NCBI GenBank assembly: GCA_010093515.1
Contig: MU001715.1
Span: forward strand, 1 to 21,343
Reading direction: 5' to 3'
Source of the DNA: Lineolata rhizophorae
Taxonomy: Eukaryota > Ascomycota > Dothideomycetes > Lineolatales > Lineolataceae
DNA: 21,343 bases
The notes under the pieces were generated by a model, which saw only the letters and a program-made list of their open reading frames with translations, had not been told where the DNA came from and searched no databases. Made by a program: the position numbers and the translations under genes. This document shows positions 8,810 through 21,343 of the stretch, piece by piece. The stretch's first letter is position 1. Each line of letters opens with the position of its first letter.

Positions 8810-11379
8810 ATGGATCAGGCCATACTAGAGATCATCCGCACCAACCCTATCGGAAAAGGGCTGCATTCCTTTCGCGATTCTTTTGCTTCGTTTTGCGAGG
8901 ACAGGGGTCTTCCTGACGGCGTCGGCTCGCTGGATCAAACTGAGGATAAAGGTAGAGTGAATTGCTTCGAGACTTCGTGATAGGAGGATAGCTAACGAAT
9001 GCAGGCCTACAGAATCTGATGCTCGACCTTGTGCTCGCGCTGCAAGCCCTTCCGGCATGTCGTTCGCTACCTTCTAGAACGGGCCGTGGTACTCTTTTTC
9101 GCGACCTCTCCAGATTATATGGCGTGGTCGACTCTGACGGCTACATGAACATTGGACCCATCACCCCTCTCTTGAATGCAGTTCTCAGCAACGAGTCGGA
9201 CGAGGTGGTCTGGGACAAAGTCTACGCCGCGGTTACCCCGTCTACACCTCCCCAGGCCGTGCCATGCCTCGATCAAACCCCGCACATGCGCAGCCTCGTC
9301 AACACGAGCGAATACCGGACGCAAACGGACAGCGTGCTAAAAGAGGAGCTGGGTGGGCTCTACGCCGGCATTCCCGACTTCTATGAAAAGTTTTTCGGCG
9401 AGGTACCGGGCCTTGACGTAGCAGCTGCCGGCGTTTTCGCCAAATGCAAGGAGGGCGATAATCCGCTATACAGCAAAGGCGGCTGGCGTGGCTGGCCCAA
9501 GCAAGCAGGAGAGACCGACGTCTTGAACTGGTTCTCCGACGTAGTTAAACAGTTTGTGCGCTTCGCAGAACGCGATCTTACAGACCGAATGTTCTTCTGG
9601 TCGCCTCGCCAGAATATACGCGGATCGAGGGCGAAGCGCACGGTGAACGCAGGCTTCGGACGATCCTACGTCGACTTCGGACGACCCGGCACCGAAGGCG
9701 CGAAAACTCACTGGATCCAGGTCCTCGTTCCTGGAGAGCTAAAGAGCAGCCTAGACGAAGATAGACCGTCTGCAGCGTGGCAGGATATAGGGAGATGCGT
9801 AAAGAAGATATTCGCCGTCCAGGATACACGCCACTTTATCCTAGGTTTTACGCTTTGCGGGTCTATGATGCGGTTGTGGGAGTTCGACCGCGTAGGCGGT
9901 ATCGGGTCGTCGCCGTTTGATATTAATGAGAAGGGGCTGAAGTTCGTCTCGACGGTACTAGGGTATCTCTGCATGAACGAAAAGCAGCTCGGGTTCGACC
10001 CTACAATTCTAGAATCGGACGGCAAGCGGTACGTCGAGGTCGAGCGCGACGGTCGGATGGAACGTCTTATTATTGACGGGCTTATGGGGCGCGCGCGCGG
10101 CGTTGTGGGTCGGGCGACGACCTGCTGGAAGGCGCACCGCGAGGGGGACGACGAATCGCCTCTTGTTATCAAAGACTCGTGGCAGTACCCGGAACGTGGA
10201 GAAGAGGGCGAATTGCTTCGCGAGGCGACGGAGAAGGGCGTTGTTAACGTCGCACGACACTTCTACCACGAAACGGTTCACGTGGATGGGCGAGTCGACG
10301 ACGTCCGCCATAATATCCGCAAAGGGCTGGATGTTACGAAAACCGCCAATTACAAGCCGAAAAGCTTGATGTCGCCTCCGAGCACGTCAATGTCGCCTCC
10401 GAGTATATCGATGCCGCCTCCGAGCACAGCCAGCGCGTACAACAGGAGCACAAGTAAGGGGCAGAGCGACGGCGCCGCTAGAACAAAGAGGTCGTTTAGC
10501 AATACGGACGCGGCGCTACCGCTACCCAAGCGCCTCTGCTCGAGCTCTCCGACCAAAGTTCAACCGATTCAGAATCGGGTACACCGTCGGGTTATCGTCC
10601 GCGACTACGGGAAGCCGATCTATACAGCCAGCTCCCGGCTCGCCCTCCTCGCCGCGCTGGAGGCCTGTATCGAGGGATACCAATCGTTGGTTGAGCGCGC
10701 TGGTCTGCTCCAAGGCGATATCTCGCCAAATAATCTCATCGTGGACGAAAGCGATGGAAAGCTACGCGCATTCTTGATCGACCTCGATCTTGCGATTAGA
10801 GAGCAACGGAAGGGGCCCTCGGGTGCACTAAACAAGACTGGTACGAGGGTGTTCATGGCAATCGAATTGCTCCTAGACGAGAAGCACTCCTTCGTACATG
10901 ATCTTGAGTCGTTCTTCTGGGTGCTCTTCTGGATATGTGTTCACTTCGATGGGCCGGATAAAGATATTGGGCCAACCGAGTTTGAGAGTTGGAACTATGT
11001 AGACAGCATGTCATTGGCCGAATTGAAAATTGGGCTGGTGAATTCCGAAAGGCATTTCCTTAGGCGCATAACTACGATCTTCACACCTTTCTACCAGCCA
11101 TTAGTACCATGGGTTAATAGGCTACGGAAAGTTGTTTTTCCTACGAGCGAACCAACGGAGAAGGAGGACAGAGCTTTATTCCCGAATGAAGGAGGTACTC
11201 CGGGCGGCACAGGCGGACCCGGAGGTGTTGAAAAGGTCATAAGTTCTAGTTCTGAAGAGTTCTTAAAACCTCGATGTGACGGGCCAAAGGAGTGGAAAAA
11301 AGCAGATGTCAACGAACAGTTTTCCTTCCACCAAAGCCGCAACGAACATTTCTGGAAATTTCGAGGTTGTAAGCGCTAG
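8810..11379 (+). CDS. FunK1-type fungal protein kinase
   Basis: The model is exon 1 at 8810-8951, a 53-bp intron 8952-9004 (GTAGAG, branch GCTAAC, GCAG), and exon 2 at 9005-11379, giving 838 aa. Exon 1 (MDQAILEIIRTNPIGKG...) precedes the 786-aa frame that is visible without splicing. Kinase landmarks are the beta-3 lysine in PLVIKDSW (Lys ~437), an alpha-C Glu candidate in EGELLREA, the catalytic loop QGDISPNNLI (Asp ~619, Asn ~623), and the metal-binding LIDLDLA (Asp ~640), which is the FunK1 counterpart of DFG. The catalytic loop has Gln-Gly-Asp instead of His-Arg-Asp; Asp and Asn are kept. A low-complexity insert rich in Ser, Pro and Lys, with three heptapeptide repeats, separates N- and C-lobe parts. 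FunK1 kinases are expanded in filamentous fungi and substrates are mostly unknown. No signal peptide or membrane segment is seen. The Gly-rich tail after about residue 720 may hide an unrecognised intron. No defects are visible, so the gene is probably intact. Confidence 0.85.
10369..10431 (+). repeat. Three 21-bp repeats coding for MSPPSxS heptapeptides
   Basis: Units start at 10369, 10390 and 10411, each ATG(T/C)CGCCTCCGAG followed by variable bases. They encode MSPPSTS, MSPPSIS and MPPPSTA in the low-complexity insert of the FunK1 kinase. The Ser-Pro pairs could be phosphorylation sites for proline-directed kinases (inference). Confidence 0.85.
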
Positions 11380-12209: not shown

Positions 12210-13542
12210 TCATGCCAGACCGAACCACCTCATGTCGTCGTCCCCCCGAATCGGCACGGTGTGCCCGACGCCCTGCGCGTAGATGCCCTCCAGCTTCGGC
12301 CCGTACACCGTCGTCGTGTACCCGTTCTGCGGCGTGTTCTGCTCCGTGGCCTCGGGGCTGCCGTACTCGTAGCCGAGCACGTCGGCCCACTGCTTCATCG
12401 TCTCGTCGTAGTTGGGCGGCAGCAGCGTGCCGTCGGCCGAGCCGTGGTAGATCTGCATGGCCGGGTACGCGCCCTCGTAGCCCGGGTCCATGGCCCGGGC
12501 CGTGTCGCCCCAGACCTGCGGCGACGCCTGCACCTGCCCGTTGGCGCACGAGTTGTTCCACCCGTCCACGGCGCCCGACTGCGAGTAGAAGCAGCCGGCC
12601 GGGACGCCCGAGTAGACGGTGCCGGCGGCGAAGAGCTCCGGGTAGGCGGCCGCCATGACGTTCTGCCGTGGGGGCGGAGAGCGAGGTTAGCGGAGGCGGT
12701 TCCTTGCCGTTCAAATCTCCATTGTCACTCCCCCCCTGCCCCCCTTCCCCCCCCTCAAATCTACCCCCTCGGTCACTCCGCCAGTTGAAAAATGAGTGAA
12801 AGAAAAAAGAAGAAGAAAAGGGAACAGTTGGGGATTCGCTCCGGAAGAAAAAAAAAAAAAAAAGAAAGAAGAGGGGAAGGACACGTACGGTCATCATGGC
12901 GCCGGAGCTGCTGCCTGTGACGAACACCTTGGCCGGGTCCGCGCCGTACTGGTCCAGGGTCCACGTCACCATGTTGGCGATGGAGTTGGAGTCGCCGCCG
13001 CCGTTGTGGGCCAGCGTCTGCTGCGAGCTCACGTCCCAGCAAGTGCCGCTGTGCGGGCTGCTCGGGTAGATGGCGATGAAGTTGTACTGCTCCGCCAGCT
13101 GGGCGTACGGCGAGCCGTTGTAGTAGGCCTGCGCCGTGCCGGTGCAGTAGTGGCTGGGAGGAAGGGAAAAGTCAGCTTTGCGTTTTGTGTGTGCCGGGGG
13201 GGAGGGGGGTGGGGGGTGGGGTTGGTGTGTGAGTGAAAGGATTTATCCTGGATGGTGACAAATACGGGGCCCTTTCGAGCGTCTCCTTCTGACCAAGGTG
13301 CATTTGTTGACGGGGGCAAGTTGGAACGGTTTCAAACGAGAGACGTACATGGCGACCACGATGGCCGGGCTGTCGCCGAGGCTCCTCGGGACGTAGATGT
13401 ACATGGGCACGCCGGCCGGATTGTCGCCATAGTTTTGGACCTGCTGCAGGGACCCGGCGGCGACCTGGCGGCTCTGGATAGAAGCCGAGCCGGCCACCAG
13501 GGCGAAGATGGCCGAAGTGAACGCGGTGAGGAGAGCACGCAT
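12210..13542 (-). CDS. Acetylxylan esterase, carbohydrate esterase family 1
   Basis: The model is exon 1 13542-13349, intron 13348-13154 (195 bp), exon 2 13153-12889, intron 12888-12663 (226 bp), exon 3 12662-12210, encoding 303 aa. Both donors are GTACGT and both acceptors CAG; the first intron splits the codon AT|C and the second is phase 0. Residues 1-20 (MRALLTAFTSAIFALVAGSA) are a signal peptide, so the enzyme is secreted. The alpha/beta-hydrolase nucleophile Ser lies in VTGSSSGAMM at the end of exon 2. The catalytic His is in GVGHTVP near the C-terminus, and an Asp candidate lies in between (HGSADGT or the PNYDE region). IHYCTGTAQAYY, SGTCWDVSS and the ending DDDMRWFGLA are typical of fungal CE1 acetylxylan esterases. 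These remove acetyl groups from xylan in plant cell walls and help xylanases. No carbohydrate-binding module follows, so this is the single-domain form. A feruloyl esterase or PHB-depolymerase-like specificity is the alternative. Intron 2 has a run of 16 A (plus strand). Confidence 0.92.
13196..13221 (+). other. G-quadruplex-type run in intron 1 of the esterase gene
   Basis: The plus strand reads G7-A-G6-T-G6-T-G4. Four G runs separated by single bases are an ideal quadruplex motif. The gene is on the minus strand, so the G-rich strand is the template and the transcript is C-rich here. Confidence 0.7.
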
Positions 13543-13656
13543 TTTATTTTCCGCCCCTTTTTTCTTTTGTTTAACGAAGGAAAAACCACGGAACTTTCCC
13601 AGCCTTGGCTTTCTTCACTCGTTTGTCCCATAAGCGCAAACGGGATGCTAGGTGCT

Positions 13657-13665
13657 TATTATATA
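13657..13665 (-). promoter_or_regulatory. TATA box of the esterase gene
   Basis: On the minus strand the sequence is TATATAATA, about 115 bp upstream of the esterase ATG at 13542. Distance and wording fit a TATA box. Between it and the start lie pyrimidine- and T-rich stretches, typical of fungal leaders. Confidence 0.5.
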
Positions 13666-13856
13666 CGCCAAGATCCAGGCTCCTCTCATTCTTTCTCTCT
13701 ATCTGGCCTGCAGAGGGCGCTAATTGCGTGGAAATGAGGTTTCGCGCACTCTCCGGAGAAAAGGAGCTGATTCCACATGTTTATTCTGTTGTCAAACCGT
13801 TGTCGAAGTCCACGTGCTAGCGCTCGTCACGTCACGGTAACTCGACCAAATCGTAG

Positions 13857-13889
13857 CTAATTGCGGTCTAATTGCGGTCTAATTGCGCT
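13857..13889. promoter_or_regulatory. Three 11-bp tandem units in a divergent promoter
   Basis: CTAATTGCGGT occurs at 13857-13867 and 13868-13878, then CTAATTGCGCT at 13879-13889. The period of 11 bp is about one helical turn, and it places two CGG triplets eight bases apart on the same face. CGG direct repeats are typical targets of fungal Zn2Cys6 regulators. The units lie between the esterase (minus) and the 600-aa gene (plus), so they could act on either. That they are operators is inference. Confidence 0.4.
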
Positions 13890-14311
13890 CAAGGAGCGCG
13901 GGAAAAGGCGGGGAGACGCGCGGGCCTGCGCCTGGCACCCACCCACTCTAAAATAGATTGCGATGAAGAATGAAGAAGAGGGGAAACCCGCCGCTTCTCC
14001 GCGTGGCCGGTCCTCGCCTGCTAGTCTTTTGTTCGGATCTACGCTCTCGAAACAGGGCAAGAACTTCTATATTGCTTTGCGATGGAGTCTGCGGCCATGC
14101 GCGGGCATCGCAGGCTCCCGGGCGTGCGCGGCGCTCGGCTTCAGCTCGTTCGCGATCGGATCAGCGGGAAAACATCGGCAGGACAAGGGCTGATGTGGGC
14201 GCTCGCTTGCCTTGGCCCTCCAACAAGGAATGTTCCTTCGCCTCCCCGGTCTTCTGCGATCTGCCCACGACGCTGTTCCTCGCCACTCGAGAGCTAGCTT
14301 CGCGCGCCAAG

Positions 14312-16263
14312 ATGAGAACTACGCTTTACTATTGTCTGCGAGAAGATCGATGTGGCGGCTGCCGGTACAAGCTAGAGGAAGGCGAAACGATATTTACGGG
14401 TTAGTTGGCTTGCTGTGCTCACGCTTGCCTGCTAATCGACGTAGCATCTCAAAATTGTGTCCACTCTGCCGAGCTCATGTTCGTCCGATACCGTACATAC
14501 CACGACGAGGAACTCAACATGAGTTTCCACATGTGCTGTAATCCCTCCTGCCAGTTCCGTGACAGCAGCATGATAGGCATCCATCGCAGATGCCGCAAAC
14601 TCATGACAAATTTCTCGTCTCGCCGGTTCAACATGACCCGGCACAGCCTCCATCCTCCGGTTGAAATAGACACGCGACGTCGCCAACGAGCTATACAGCT
14701 ACTGCCGCGCAGATTGAAGGAAGATGCGCTATTCGAAGAAGCTGCTCGGCTACTGCCTCGTGAGCTCCTCGACCAGGTGGTGTCACATCTTCTTTGCGAA
14801 AGCGCCGCTGTGAGCATCGAAGCCCAGGTCCTCAACAGCTCATTGTTGGTGCAAGCGCACGCTTCCGACAATCTACAGTACAACACAGTCAATCTAGGCC
14901 GCGATATCGTTGCCGATCTTGTCTCTTTCGAAGGAGTCCAATACGTTCAAAATCTTCGCAATTCCACCGTGATGCAAGCCGTTGACTCAGAACTGCTCCT
15001 TCTAAATACCCGAAAGACACCACTCCCGGAGAGATTATACGTTGCAGAGGATCATCTAGGTGTTCGAATGGCCATCTTTGGCCGCCCGGATAGACCCCTG
15101 CCTGATGCTTGCATGTCGCAGGGACTATGGTGGAGAACGCTGGAGATCAACGCTGACACGAGACTCGAGGTTCAAAGCGATGTAAGATCAACCTCGCCCA
15201 TTTATTCATGCTGTTAACGGGACCGGGGCATGAAGCTTCGACGTGTCAAATTGACGGATCCAAATATGGCTCTTCCACCTCTGTGGAGTAAGCCAGTAAC
15301 GGACTACAGCTTAATCAACCTTGAGCACCCTCTGGCAAACCCAAGTCGTCTTCCTCATCGTCTTCGGATGCGAGGTTTCAAGTGTAACGCAAGAGGCATC
15401 AGAGGTTATTCAGCCCTCGTGACTCGCTCTGGAGTAGATGCGATATTTGCTCACGAAAACAACAACAATGACAAAGAGTTGTATCGAGACACACCCCCAG
15501 GATCGCGCATCCTGTACATGCCGATTGGCCCCAATGAGCATGTCATTTCTATCTGGGCCGTGTCGTTTATAGCATTTCCAGATCTCAACGGCCTCGCCTT
15601 ACTGGCAAGTGACCTTTTTGACTTGTTAGTCTGTCAACTAATCATCTAAAACAGTTCGAGACCAATCAAAAGATCGCCTGGTTCGGCCGCCATCTCGTGG
15701 ATGCCGCAATCGCTCCCTACCGAATCCATCTACTTTCGCGAAACGAAACGAACATCTTCTACAACGTGCGGCCCGGCGGAATCAGGTTCTTGGCTTCTGA
15801 GCATCAACTACATCCGTCCCATGAAAAGCTGCCAGATGCGACGGGCTCGGTCTCCATCCCCTTGGATATACCTTCCCAGCCGTGCTTCCAGTCTTCCTGC
15901 AGCCTTGACGGTGCTTGTTTCATCACTCTGTGCAGAGACATGTCTGTGGAACATCGACCAATTATTGGGATGCTGATTACCGACACCCATCAACGCGAGT
16001 TTTGCTTAGGACAGTTTCGATTCGATCGCAAGCTGGAGCGTATTCAGCTCAACTATAGCAGACTCTTGCGATTCGCCGCAGCGAGGACGAATAAATCGTT
16101 TCTTTACGTGATGGACGTTTGGGGAGAAGGGCCAAGGCCGAGCAGTCACGATCCAAACTTCCTGCTGAGCATGCCTTTGGAAGGGACATTAGTCTGGCGT
16201 TTCTCACGTCACCACACCGAGCTGTACCACAGCAGCCTGCAAGGATTTTGGCGTCCATTATGA
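14312..16263 (+). CDS. 600-aa fungal protein of unknown function, Cys-rich N-terminus
   Basis: The model is exon 1 14312-14399, intron 14400-14444 (45 bp, GTTAGT...GTAG), exon 2 14445-15181, intron 15182-15235 (54 bp, GTAAGA, branch GTTAAC, GAAG), exon 3 15236-15604, intron 15605-15654 (50 bp, GCAAGT...ACAG) and exon 4 15655-16263. All junctions keep frame and total 600 aa. The third intron uses a GC donor; no GT donor nearby keeps frame. The start MRTTLYYCLRED leads into a likely zinc-binding region: Cys14-x2-Cys17, Cys34, then FHMCCNPSC and IHRRC. LPRELLDQVVSHL at about residue 133 resembles an F-box or similar short helical motif. DHLGVRMAIFG and GLWWRTL (Trp ~258-259) match wording I recall from a large group of uncharacterised ascomycete proteins. 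No signal peptide or membrane segment is visible. A role as adaptor or ubiquitin-ligase substrate receptor is speculation. The acceptor GAAG is weak but is the only AG between the branch point and the coding resumption. Confidence 0.75.
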
Positions 16264-17339
16264 GACAGAGATATAAGAGCCATCATCATCTTGGCCAGCC
16301 GCTGATGGGGTGTGGTTGAAATTTGCGCCGCTTCTGGAGAGCAATAGGACGTTCGAAAGGTAAGAGAATCTGGAGAAGCGAGACGAGGCCTTTGCTAGGC
16401 TTTTTCTAGTAGAGTATATAAGCATCGATAGCTATGGTGCCTGCCTTAAAGGATGCTAGGCGTCAGCCCCAATCGACGAGAATAGCGGGGTAACGTGTGT
16501 CCTATTGGTCCGATTCCAATGGCGCGGGATTGGATGCTTGTTAGAGGCCCTTGTCCGCAGAAATATTATTGCCACATAGAGAAGCTGTTTGGTGAAGTCC
16601 CTGCTATGCAGCAACTCCTTCGTGCGTCATGCTTAATCTGTCGCTGAGTTGGCAGCCGAGGTTTAGCTTCAGGATGAACATCGGCTGCTTTAATTCACGC
16701 GCGGCATCTAAATGCGGGAACTGCTGTCATAAGCGCTGGCGAAAGTTGCCTCTTGAAAATAAACAATAGGGAGGGATTATCTTGGCCCGGAGCTAGCTTA
16801 TAAATGGTTTAGCGCTAGCCCCTATATTGCAGGGGTAAACGGCGCGCTGCGCATGTCATGTGACGCCAGTCTTATCGATACAGGGCTGTTTGTTTACGCC
16901 CAGCGCTGGTCGGAAAATCAAAAACCCCGCCGCGTTTATCTTAACCCCACCTGCTCTTCTGCTCCCCATCAATCGTCATCTACTCGAGTCTGTCTCCCTC
17001 TCCCTCTCTCTCCAGGCATGAGGTGCGCGCAACCACGCGTGCGGCGGTGAGGGCCAACTTCCGCTCGCTTCGTCGCACAACCAATCAATCATACCATTTC
17101 CAACAATGTGCGCCAGCAGGGAGGGCGCGCCGACCCGTTATGAACCTGTGGTGGATGTCATGCATGGCGGCAGCAGCCACGTGACGCCCGGGGCCAAGTG
17201 ATGCCGGCCCCGGTTCAGCGCACAGCGTACGTAGATTGCAGAGTGCAGGTTTACCTACACTCTGCAACCTCGACCTCGATCTCACCGTGTACACTCTGTG
17301 TGCCACCGTATACTCTGTGACGCTCTTTGCTCTATTGCA
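16264..17339. other. No gene seen in about 1.08 kb
   Basis: The first part (to about 16840) is AT-moderate, with TATATAAG near 16415, without a coding frame. A pyrimidine-rich stretch (CTCCCTCTCCCTCTCTCTCC region, about 16992-17013) just before ATG at 17020 looks like a fungal promoter leader, but the frame behind it stops at once. This may be the promoter of a gene disrupted by the LINE-derived sequence to the right. Short frames at 16853-17050 and 17085-17306 show no protein character. Confidence 0.4.
17236..17267. repeat. 32-nt near-perfect palindrome
   Basis: TTGCAGAGTG, then a central AGGT-TT-ACCT, then CACTCTGCAA: 14 of 15 pairs match across a TT loop. Behind it, related pieces (TACACTCTGTG at about 17289 and TATACTCTGTG at about 17310) repeat the arm. 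It sits about 70 bp before the first recognisable LINE sequence. Confidence 0.7.
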
Positions 17340-17654
17340 GTGTACCCGAGCAAGAAAAGCGAGGCGGATGCAGCGCTAGAACATCTGGAAATTGGCGGCA
17401 TACTTGCCCGAACCTGCCCATACGAGAATCGAGCCGGACCGAGGTGTTGCTACAAATGCCAGCAATTCGGCCACATCGCGTCACGGTGTAAGAACGAACT
17501 GACATGTGCGAACTGTGCAGACATCGGACACGAGGCGACGACCTGCCCCCAGGAGCAGCCGAGATGCGTTAGCTGCGGTGATGCCCATCGAGCGACTGCC
17601 AGAGGGTGCCCAGAATATGCAAAAGCGCTGGACCAAGCACGTGCACGCCAATAA
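17340..17654 (+). pseudogene. LINE ORF1 (gag-like) C-terminus with three zinc knuckles
   Basis: Recognisable sequence starts with VYPSKKSEADAALEHLEIGG. The knuckles are CYKCQQFGHIASRC and CANCADIGHEATTC (both CX2CX4HX4C), then CVSCGDAHRATARGC (CX2CX3HX6C), the triple arrangement of Tad/jockey-type ORF1 proteins that bind the element RNA. The frame ends in TAA at 17652-17654. The N-terminal part of ORF1 is missing; an open frame upstream to 17298 does not look related. Confidence 0.85.
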
Positions 17655-18900
17655 TGAGTACGGCTGATCAAGTTTCACGCAGAGAACAGTTCAACATGCT
17701 TTCTTACAACGTAGCGAAGAGGAGAGAGCCGCAGCTCAGCCTGCTGAATGATGAGTCCATCAGGGACTTCGACTTACTACTCATGCAGGAACCCCACTGC
17801 TTCACCTCGCCGTCCAGGCAAGTGACGGCGGTCCCCAGACGCAACAGTAACTTAGCGCAGGTCCTACCCTCGCGCAGTGTCCCGGACATGTGGCGCATCC
17901 AATCGATAATCTAGGCCCGGAACCGCCTAGACTTCAGGCTGATCCCGATCGGCTCTCATGACATTACCGCGGTGCTTACCAAGACGGAAGAAACAACCAT
18001 CTTTGCGACGTCGGTGTACATCCCGACGAAAGAGGGCAGCACAGAAGAACACCGAGACAACGTGGCAGAAAAGCCCCGACTCCTGGAGGAAGCCATTAAC
18101 AGGACCTCGACCGCCCAATCGAACCCCGTGGAACTTCTGATCGCGAGGGACTTCAACCGACATAACCAGCTCTGGGGAGGCGACGCGGTCGCAGAGACGG
18201 CCCGCCAGAATGAAGCGGACGAGATTGTCGAATTCCTTGAGGCCTTCCAGCTGTCGAACCTGCTCCGCCGAGGGAAGCTAACATACAATGGATCCGGAGG
18301 CAGCAGCATGATCGACCTTGTGCTCGCTACGCCAACGCTCGCGGACAAGCTTGTTCGATACCAATTTCGCGGCAATGAGCACGGCTCCGACCACCGGCTC
18401 GTACGCACGACGCTCGAACTCACCTCGCAGCAGGAACGGAAGGCACCGCGGCGACTCTTTAAGAACGCCGACTGGGCGCATATCTGCAGGGAGGTAACGG
18501 CTGCCAAACGACCGCAACCGCCCGACCAGCCAGGAGAGGGGGTGGACGACATGCTCGATCGAATAATGAAACTGGTCGGCCCGGCGATTGAGAGGCATGT
18601 GCCGATGGCCAAACCATCTCCCTTTCAGAAGCTGTGGTGGACGCCTCATCTCGCCCGTCTTTGTAAAGAGTACAGGTGCATTCGAAGACTGCTCTGTCGG
18701 GAGGTAAAGGCCAACTGATGGACCGAAAGGACAAACGCCGAGACACACCACAGGCTCCAGGGCATCCGGAGGGAGGCAACGGCAGCTGAGAGCACATACC
18801 ACAGAGCGATCAGATAGGAGAAGAGCCAGCACTGGAAAGATTTCGTGGATGACCCCCAGAACGTGTGGAAGGCGGCGAAGTACCTGCCGACGACTCTGCC
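17654..18900 (+). pseudogene. LINE ORF2 N-terminus: APE-type endonuclease and linker
   Basis: The ATG at 17654-17656 overlaps the ORF1 stop (TAATG). The frame runs through three stops (TAG 17912-17914 where Trp is expected, TGA near 18716, TAG near 18817) to about 18900. Endonuclease landmarks are LSYNVAK (Asn), MQEP (Glu), ARDFNRHNQLWGG (DFN, with Ala-Arg in place of the usual Gly), GSSMIDLVL (Asp) and GSDHRLV (the SDH motif). They make up the nick-forming domain that starts target-primed reverse transcription. The linker ends with DDPQNVWKAAKYL, where family members lead into RT. There the plus-strand homology stops. Confidence 0.85.
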
Positions 18901-18904
18901 TCGT

Positions 18905-20995
18905 ACACCTGATCGCTGCCGATCTTAGCCGGATCTCTTGCGGGATGATGGCTCCTCTAGCCGTGCTTTGTTTCGCAACCTTGTCTGCCGCCTCGTTCCC
19001 TCGAATGCCGGATTGTGCCGGGACTAATCGAAGGACTACCGTAATTCCACGTCGCTGTAGCTGCTCCGTGTTGGAGAGGATCTTTCGAATGATGCACTAC
19101 CTGGACTGTTGTCTAGGCTTGCGGATGCTCTTGAGAGCGCTCTGATTGTCAGAGAAGATGTGACGGCACGAAGCGTCGGTCTACCCGTCCTGGCCAGCTA
19201 GGCCGAAGCTATCTGTATTGCTTCCAGCTCGGTGGCATAGACATTGCAGTTGGCCACAGACCCAGTCGTGGCGTGCTCCTCGATCCTCGTCCTCTCCCCG
19301 TCGGGTACCACATAGACGATGCCTATGCTAAGCATACCTGCTCTGCAGGAGCCATCGGTGTAGCAGTGGACTTCCCAGGGATGCTTCGGTAGCTTGTGGC
19401 GCTGTTTCGTGGTCTTCAATAACAACCTCCGAGCCTGGTATCCAGGGCGCTTTCGCGAATGGTGTCACCGTCTCGAGCTTCGACACATCGATCGTGGCAA
19501 AGCGGTCCGCCAGCCGCCCGAGGGAGGAGCGCAGCTTAATCGATCGATGCACTGATCGAATGCTAGATCTCAGTAGGTGCCGCTTCGGGAGGGTGTTCAG
19601 CTTCACCTAGAGCCCAAGCCACTTGTCCTCGTGCCGCTACGGGAACGTCTCGATGGATGCCTCCGACTGTGAGATGGACAGCGCTGTGGTACGAAAGCAG
19701 CCTGTGATGGCTTGAGCGCCCCGCCGTTGGTGTCGCTCGAGCAGGCGGACGTTCTTGCGGTTCAACGCTAAGGCCCAAATAGACGATGCGTAGTCTACCA
19801 TCGCAGCCACCGTCGCCGTGAACAGCTAGCGAGCTTGCTTTGGTCGCAAATCCCGCAGTCGCCTTAGATGGTCTGCCCCCGCATTACCCCTCTTGACCGC
19901 CCTAGCTACATGCGGATAAACTTGAGTTTCTAGTCGAGTATCACGCCCAGGATCTTGACCGTCTCGCTCGGGTAGACTACGCGACCTTCTACTCGGGCCG
20001 GTATGTCAGACACCCTCTCTGCGCTTGGTGTGAAGTGAATGAACTGGGTCTTTTCGATTGGTGTGAAGTGAATGAACTAGGTCTTTTCGAGATCGAAGGC
20101 GGCTCTGCTGCACCGCGCCCAACGCTCAGCGTTCGGTATGACTACGTTTTGCAGTGCTCGAGTGTTTTCTTCGGCGTTGACCCCGGTCACCCAGACCGAG
20201 TAGTCGTCCACGTACGCAATCGAGCCCCGATGGTGGGTGATCTTGCTCTCCACTAGATCGGTGTTGAAGAAGATATATAGGACGGGCGAGAGCGGCGAGC
20301 CTTGCGGGATTCCCGGAGAGGCTATCGCTTGCTCTACGCTCGTCGGTCCGTTGACCTGGATCGAGGCTCGTCTGTCCGAGCAGAAGGCTTGGATCTATCT
20401 CACTATTCCCTCGGGTATTTGTCAACTCCTGAGTCTGGCTAGCAACACAGCTTTGTTGCCTCCGTTATATGCCCCTTGACGTCGAAGCTGACCAGGCTCA
20501 GCACCCGGCACTTCCTCCGCGCTTGCTGGATCCGGTCCGTGAGGAGAAGGAGTACCTGTTCGGCGCTCCTCTGCTTCCGCGCTCCATTGTGAGGGGAGCT
20601 GCCCTGCGAGATAGACGCCTGGAACAGCGCGGTGGTCTCGTCCTGGAGTACTGGCTACAGATGCTGCCATACCAGCGCAGGCAGCCCGTTAGGTCCGGCC
20701 GCCTTGCGTGTTTTCATCCCATGATGGCCTGCTCGACCTCTCCTTTTCCAATCGGAATGGACGGCAGCTGTGGCCTTGGCGATCTTGTCGGTGTTTCTGC
20801 CTCCTCCGTTACCTCGGTTGCCTGTGGAAAGAAGGCCGCTAGGAGTGCTGAGCCGATGTCGCTCTTGTCTTCCGATCTTCGTGAAAGAGGATGCGCCTTC
20901 CGGATTGAGGTGAGACAAACCGTCAAAGAGGGAAGCTTCACCAGATCTATCGACGCCGCCATCCTAGGACGGCATACAAGAGTCATGTGATGCAC
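18905..20995 (-). pseudogene. LINE reverse transcriptase and RNase H, inverted
   Basis: Read from 20995 down: SHLNPEGASSF (pre-RT linker), a frameshift, LLAAFFPQ, TRKAAGPNGLPALVWQHL with TAG for Trp after it, QRSAEQVLLLLTDRI, SLVSFDVKG, then AYNGGNKAVLLARLR one base out of frame, then IPQGSPLSPVLY, then AYVDDYSVWVTG (YVDD at 20214-20203). The thumb follows (RRGAQAITGCFRT), then RNase H with CYTDGSC (19366-19346), ATELEAIQIAS, FSDNQSALKSI and GIRGNEAADKVAKQ. These are all RT and RNase H core motifs of a Tad-type LINE. About a hundred residues seem deleted near 20590, between the LPSQW and RSAEQ motifs. Stops (TAG for Trp) and shifts make it non-functional. Confidence 0.88.
20025..20090. repeat. 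33-bp tandem duplication in the RT region
   Basis: A 33-bp unit starting TTGGTGTGAAGTGAATGAAC at 20025 is repeated at 20058 with one change. As 33 is divisible by three, it adds 11 codons on the minus strand without shifting frame, just downstream of the YVDD region. Confidence 0.85.
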
Positions 20996-21003
20996 AATCC
21001 TAG

Positions 21004-21343
21004 GCCAAATCACGGTTCCTCGCCTGGCTGCGAACGGAGCAGTGCCTACTAAACAAGTAGCTGCATCGTATTAGAGAAGCCGCGTCACCGCTGTGTAACG
21101 AATGCGGGGTGGAAGAGAACGTGCAGCACTTCCTGTTAGACTGCAGGAAATAGACCGAGCATCGGAGGCTCTTGATAGAAGCGACGCGACCCGAAGTGAT
21201 CTATCCTTCCTACTAGGAGGCCGCTCAACCAGGACGAATCTCGACGTTCATTCACCAACCTCCGGTGAACGGTAAGTATGCCTTTCGAGTTTGTTGCTAT
21301 TAGGAGTTATAACCGTTCCTATCAGGGTATGACCCGCCCTCAG
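21004..21343 (+). pseudogene. LINE C-terminal CCHC domain, partial
   Basis: The plus-strand frame gives FLAWLRTEQCLLNK, then LHRIREAASPLC, then CNECGVEENVQHFLLDC (CX2CX7HX4C), followed by a TAG where Trp is usual. This is the zinc-binding C-terminus that follows RNase H in Tad-type LINEs. It is on the opposite strand to the RT/RNase H next to it. The sequence after about 21180 decays, and no poly(A) or simple-repeat tail is reached before the window ends. Confidence 0.75.

Follow-up and report, generated by a model that had tools for sequence, protein, structure and literature searches.

The window corresponds to one complete contig, C46 (21,343 bp), of a genome that comprises 30,968,845 bases in 48 contigs, and its right-hand end carries a LINE whose ORF2 is divided between the two strands. 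This raises the question of whether the locus holds one element with a segment turned round in place, two elements, or a block that was joined the wrong way round during assembly. The original prediction favoured the first reading, placing the endonuclease (EN) and the CCHC-containing end on the plus strand and the reverse transcriptase (RT) and RNase H on the minus strand. Intact two-ORF LINEs at other loci of the same genome served as references, with residue numbering taken from the ORF2 of the C26 copy (1329 aa), in which the Pfam domains run from EN through RT to RNase H. This element and its two-ORF fungal relatives are putatively Tad-like LINEs.

The genome contains 15 LINE matches to the endonuclease and 12 to one RT piece, with the window included in each count. 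A search for relatives among prokaryote genome contigs, as possible contaminants, yielded 107 stretches that fit a pattern; none of them encodes a relative, and the idea was discarded. ORFs six to nine of locus L048 are not genes, being N runs translated as X. Long LINE ORFs are found on C19, C22, C25, C26, C27, C35, C36, C44 and C48, most of them less than about 13 kb from a contig end, with C24 as an exception; no tandem TTAGGG (telomeric) repeats were detected in the window or in the nine LINE loci scanned.

When long ORFs from nine other LINE loci were compared back to the window by tblastn, all nine ORF2 queries gave a plus-strand match for EN and a minus-strand match for RT, and six of the nine also matched the C-terminal part on the plus strand. 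Among the three queries without a C-terminal match, the C22 ORF stops at a contig end, the C24 ORF is shorter, and C44 gives none at E 1e-3. With the C26 query, the EN match (Table 1) has an E value of 2e-58, residues 496-533 and 593-1127 match minus 20705-18962 (E 7e-6 and 6e-68), and residues 1167-1247 match plus 20931-21174 (E 1.6e-6). The same picture emerges when the window is aligned, with frameshifts tolerated, to a profile built from four relatives: residues 29-417 fall on plus 17678-18886 (score 372) and residues 446-1127 on minus 20860-18962 (score 724). Both methods bear out the predicted strands, and the reversed RT/RNase H part is confirmed as a real feature of the sequence.

Table 1. 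Features of the LINE at the right-hand end of the window (residues as in the ORF2 or ORF1 of the named reference copy)
Feature	Position	Strand	Evidence
ORF1 C-terminal part with CCHC zinc knuckles	17382..17651	+	tblastn with C22 and C26 ORF1; Pfam zf-CCHC E 3.7e-4
ORF2 endonuclease, C26 aa 21-417	17648..18886	+	tblastn; profile alignment; Pfam Exo_endo_phos_2 E 4.1e-21
Proposed left joint, ACCT	18882..18885	+	firm bracket 18886-18962; 18886-18926 with C44 alignment
Inverted block, RT and RNase H, C26 aa about 418-1166 (firm 446-1127)	18886..20907	-	tblastn; profile alignment
Proposed right joint, AGGT	20908..20911	+	firm bracket 20860-20931
ORF2 C-terminal part with CCHC-type motif	20912..21309	+	tblastn, C26 aa 1167-1247 and C27 aa 1300-1362
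End of multi-copy repeat	21310..21343	+	38 non-self own-genome matches, each within 21301-21343

The individual domains vary in how easily they are recognised. The ORF1 remnant matches ORF1 sequences of its own genome at 30-50%, and its zf-CCHC match barely passes the Pfam cut-off (20.9 versus 20.8 bits). Upstream, a search of 13000-17382 for the remainder of ORF1 gave nothing better than E 0.1, save gapped extensions of the remnant match to 17211. The ORF2 endonuclease is of the APE type (Pfam Exo_endo_phos_2). RT is 49% identical to the C26 RT over minus 20478-19918, with an RVT_1 match (E 3.8e-5, 23.9 bits) that falls below the curated cut-off of 29.6. RNase H is assigned by alignment to C26 residues 804-1127, where Pfam finds RNase_H at E 2e-10 in C26 itself; Pfam gives no RNase H match in the window pieces alone.

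In its zinc-knuckle ORF1 end and its ORF2 domains, the window copy thus resembles a two-ORF fungal LINE (APE-type EN, RT, RNase H, CCHC), but it is a broken copy in which RT and RNase H are encoded on the other strand. Its domains do not follow one another in one order on one strand, EN and the C-terminal part being on the plus strand and RT and RNase H on the minus strand. By contrast, EN and RT share a strand in all 10 of the other loci that hold both domains (11 loci with the window), and each joint occurs only once in the assembly. The split strands are read as probably marking a rearranged copy and not another kind of element.

Whether the three pieces come from one element was addressed by aligning them to a full-length LINE of the same genome, as had been proposed. 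The C26 intervals (21-417, 446-1127 and 1167-1247) are complementary, with the middle one reversed, and no ORF2 segment is represented twice. Reference codons without assignment at the two joints number about 28 and 39 only. An independent fragment would be expected to end so near the flanks at both ends with a chance of about 0.003 (57/1329 x 79/1329, if ends are uniformly distributed). The predicted single element with an in-place inversion is therefore favoured by the complementary intervals, and the reading as a single LINE, inverted reciprocally over about 2.0 kb of its interior, is supported.

The competing reading involves two LINE copies, either one nested within the other in opposite orientation or two adjacent fragments. 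A different history for the block would also fit its frameshift density, which is unlike that of EN (5 in 617 aligned codons versus 0 in 380). However, in addition to the complementary intervals, an inserted copy would be expected to carry its own 3' end, and EN and RT share a kinship order: identity to the window in EN is 37% for C26, 33% for C22 and 23% for C27, and in RT 53% for C26, 49% for C22, 40% for C44 and 34% for C27. The order is reversed in RNase H (C22 37%, C26 33%), and separate EN, RT and RNase H trees do not resolve the place of the window copy in any of the three parts, so that the subfamily comparison appears weakly consistent with one element. A nested copy or a block from another subfamily, which the original prediction had kept as alternatives, finds no support in the complementary intervals or in the like kinship order of EN and RT, and two copies are very improbable.

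For a single inverted element, the next matter is where the joints lie. The best placement of the block gives it 2,022 bp. On the left, the C44 tblastn alignment carries the block to 18926, and the joint is blurred, with the plus-strand EN match of the C22 query continuing to 18919. On the right, the weaker match of a short motif (minus 20912-20874) extends the block out to about 20906, and a C-terminal motif starts at plus 20916, which puts the boundary near 20907-20916. The inversion originally placed at 18890..21010 (about 2.1 kb) stands as an inversion, but its right end is revised to about 20907 and its size to about 2.0 kb. The peptide named as the start of the block, HLNPEGASSFTKI, is indeed present as this motif, but it matches relatives weakly: when all six frames of the window are scanned, the C26 motif scores 24 here against 23 at the next best site, and with the C22 and C44 motifs this site is not in the top four.

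Reading registers provide a further view of the joints. Those of RNase H and the C-terminal part agree across the proposed right joint, and those of EN and the block start agree across the proposed left joint, the latter agreement depending on the weak motif match; agreement at both has a chance of 1 in 9. Between the firm alignments the window holds 145 bp (about 48 codons), as against 28 + 39 = 67 codons in C26. Because it is about 19 codons shorter over both joints, small losses or ordinary length variation may have occurred there.

Several candidate signals at the joints were tried and rejected. The 4-bp inverted match ACCT/AGGT was equalled in 2222 of 5000 random 16-bp pairs drawn from the element, and microhomology that is no better than chance does not serve as a mark of mechanism. 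Long inverted repeats driving the inversion can be set aside as well: of 14 pairs in 18600-21343, the longest is 24 nt at 71% and none has an arm at each joint. The octamer ATCCTAGG, which had been remarked on as a pair near the right breakpoint, does occur at 20961 and 20997, and again at 9838 (three in the window versus a shuffle mean of 0.47, with 0 of 100 shuffles reaching three). Yet neither of the two right-hand copies is at the joint. Both are about 50-95 bp outside it, within the plus-strand C-terminal part, and the octamer was dropped as a breakpoint signal.

The proximity of the right joint to the contig end, only about 435 bp away, raises the possibility of an assembly or cloning artefact in which an ordinary genomic LINE had its block joined in reverse. 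The contig also ends in a multi-copy repeat, other copies of which hold N runs. The right side of the LINE meets this 34-36 bp repeat at 21310-21343, and it has 38 other matches in the genome. These often occur in pairs of opposite orientation spaced by about 1.8 kb, as at C20:532143 (plus) and 533942 (minus), where the inner part reads as N, and the repeat starts after TA; by its look it may be the terminal inverted repeat of a DNA transposon. The contig stops at 21343 because a multi-copy repeat breaks there, and the repeat itself therefore accounts for the contig end. C17, which has the same repeat end at its start, was rejected as a continuation of the LINE, with ORF2 matches in C17:1-6000 at E 0.17 or worse. 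Against an artefact, neither joint lies in repeated DNA, the inverted matches spanning both joints amount to just 4 bp, the window contains no N, and the other block copy reaches at most 69% over 156 bp (one match). Since the window lacks N and the block lacks a close second copy, repeat-driven misassembly at the joints is unlikely, and an artefact of assembly or cloning in general is also considered unlikely.

At the other end of the element, a repeat of about 180 bp occupies 17143-17325, and its homology stops at about 17325, just before the ORF1 remnant. It overlaps at least 46 of the 47 other DNA matches of a query covering 17001-18890 (40 of 92 candidates scored).

How the inversion of this single element arose can be considered in light of the known ways in which LINE copies are rearranged. 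Twin priming gives an inverted 5' part (PMC12016303, PMC12350158, PMC10415145), and in human L1 insertions 5' inversions are described for 21.9% of the somatic and 18.4% of the germline ones (PMC12016303). The window copy resembles such twin-primed insertions (Ostertag and Kazazian 2001, cited in PMC12016303 and PMC12350158) in having an inverted part, but as those sources describe them they consist of two pieces with the 5' one inverted, whereas here there are three pieces with the middle one inverted. The expectation that twin priming would not yield an internal inversion is borne out: the 5' piece, comprising the ORF1 end and EN, is upright, and a twin-priming product with an inverted 5' part and an upright 3' part was rejected.

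Inversion during insertion could also involve extra internal or three-part priming, or a template switch on one LINE RNA, in target-primed reverse transcription. Human L1 insertions do carry 5' inversions (PMC12016303), and among 5,523 non-canonical human insertions 2,916 are described with internal rearrangements (PMC12350158), some of them possibly made at integration, with the authors in their account also allowing later structural change as a cause. Those rearranged copies share with the window copy multiple internal breakpoints beyond a standard insertion, but as presented there they are human polymorphic insertions, and the window copy is old, diverged and single. Set against an insertion-time origin are the middle-only inversion and a target duplication that is unreadable, the 5' end having been lost and the 3' end running into another repeat; such an origin is quite improbable, less so than two separate copies and more so than an artefact. 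Were it correct, it would represent an outcome beyond twin priming in a fungal LINE and would bear on how LINE cDNA is completed, although the evidence is not in its favour.

The account we prefer, and probably the correct one, is that a fungal-type EN-RT-RNase H LINE inserted here and decayed, and that at some point an ORF2 segment of about 2.0 kb (about 18886-20907) was freed by a break at each end and resealed at the same place in the reverse orientation, presumably through two double-strand breaks and end joining after insertion. This route needs no special assumption and is the best explanation; it corresponds to the later rearrangement that had been offered as one option, with twin priming not fitting and a nested copy lacking support. 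In the literature searched, no in-place internal inversion of a fungal LINE was found, which is not evidence of absence. As a single, clean case of a LINE reciprocally inverted in its interior, the window copy probably matters little more widely, and it offers a caution for annotation, where it would be called two LINE fragments on opposite strands.

The copy is extensively damaged. EN shows no frameshift across its 380 aligned codons, two of which are stops, and carries a further TGA at 18716-18718; the block has, besides its five frameshifts, 10 stops and a 59-codon RT deletion at about 20592; and the C-terminal part has one frameshift near 20985-21004 and at least three stops. With these frameshifts and stops, the RT deletion, the inversion and an undetected N-terminal ORF1, the element is, as judged from its sequence, a dead copy. 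The inversion parts RT and RNase H from the rest of ORF2, and the full protein could therefore not be made by this copy. Repeat-induced point mutation, for which the TpA/ApT threshold is about 0.89, was rejected as the cause of decay, with ratios of 0.58 in ORF1 and EN and 0.80 in the block. A tendency in that direction is confined to the final 435 bp (20909-21343), with a ratio of 1.04 and a GC content of 0.526, the former higher and the latter lower than in the rest of the element in what is a short sample. A 33-bp tandem duplication, 88% identical, is present at 20016-20081 inside the inverted RT block.

The remainder of the contig contains genes and other repeats. A fungal protein kinase gene is represented by an open frame of 795 aa at 8992-11379 (Pfam Pkinase_fungal, E 2.3e-133). 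An esterase gene lies in exons on the minus strand at 12210-13614, and its 12210-12686 part matches acetylxylan esterase A (5x6s, E 1.1e-63) and feruloyl esterase (8iy8). Two direct repeat copies of 146 bp, 93% identical and 165 bp apart, are located at 1878-2188. Finally, two tandem repeat copies of 62 bp, 97% identical, are found at 704-827, with related sequence on C11 near 14,320-14,400.
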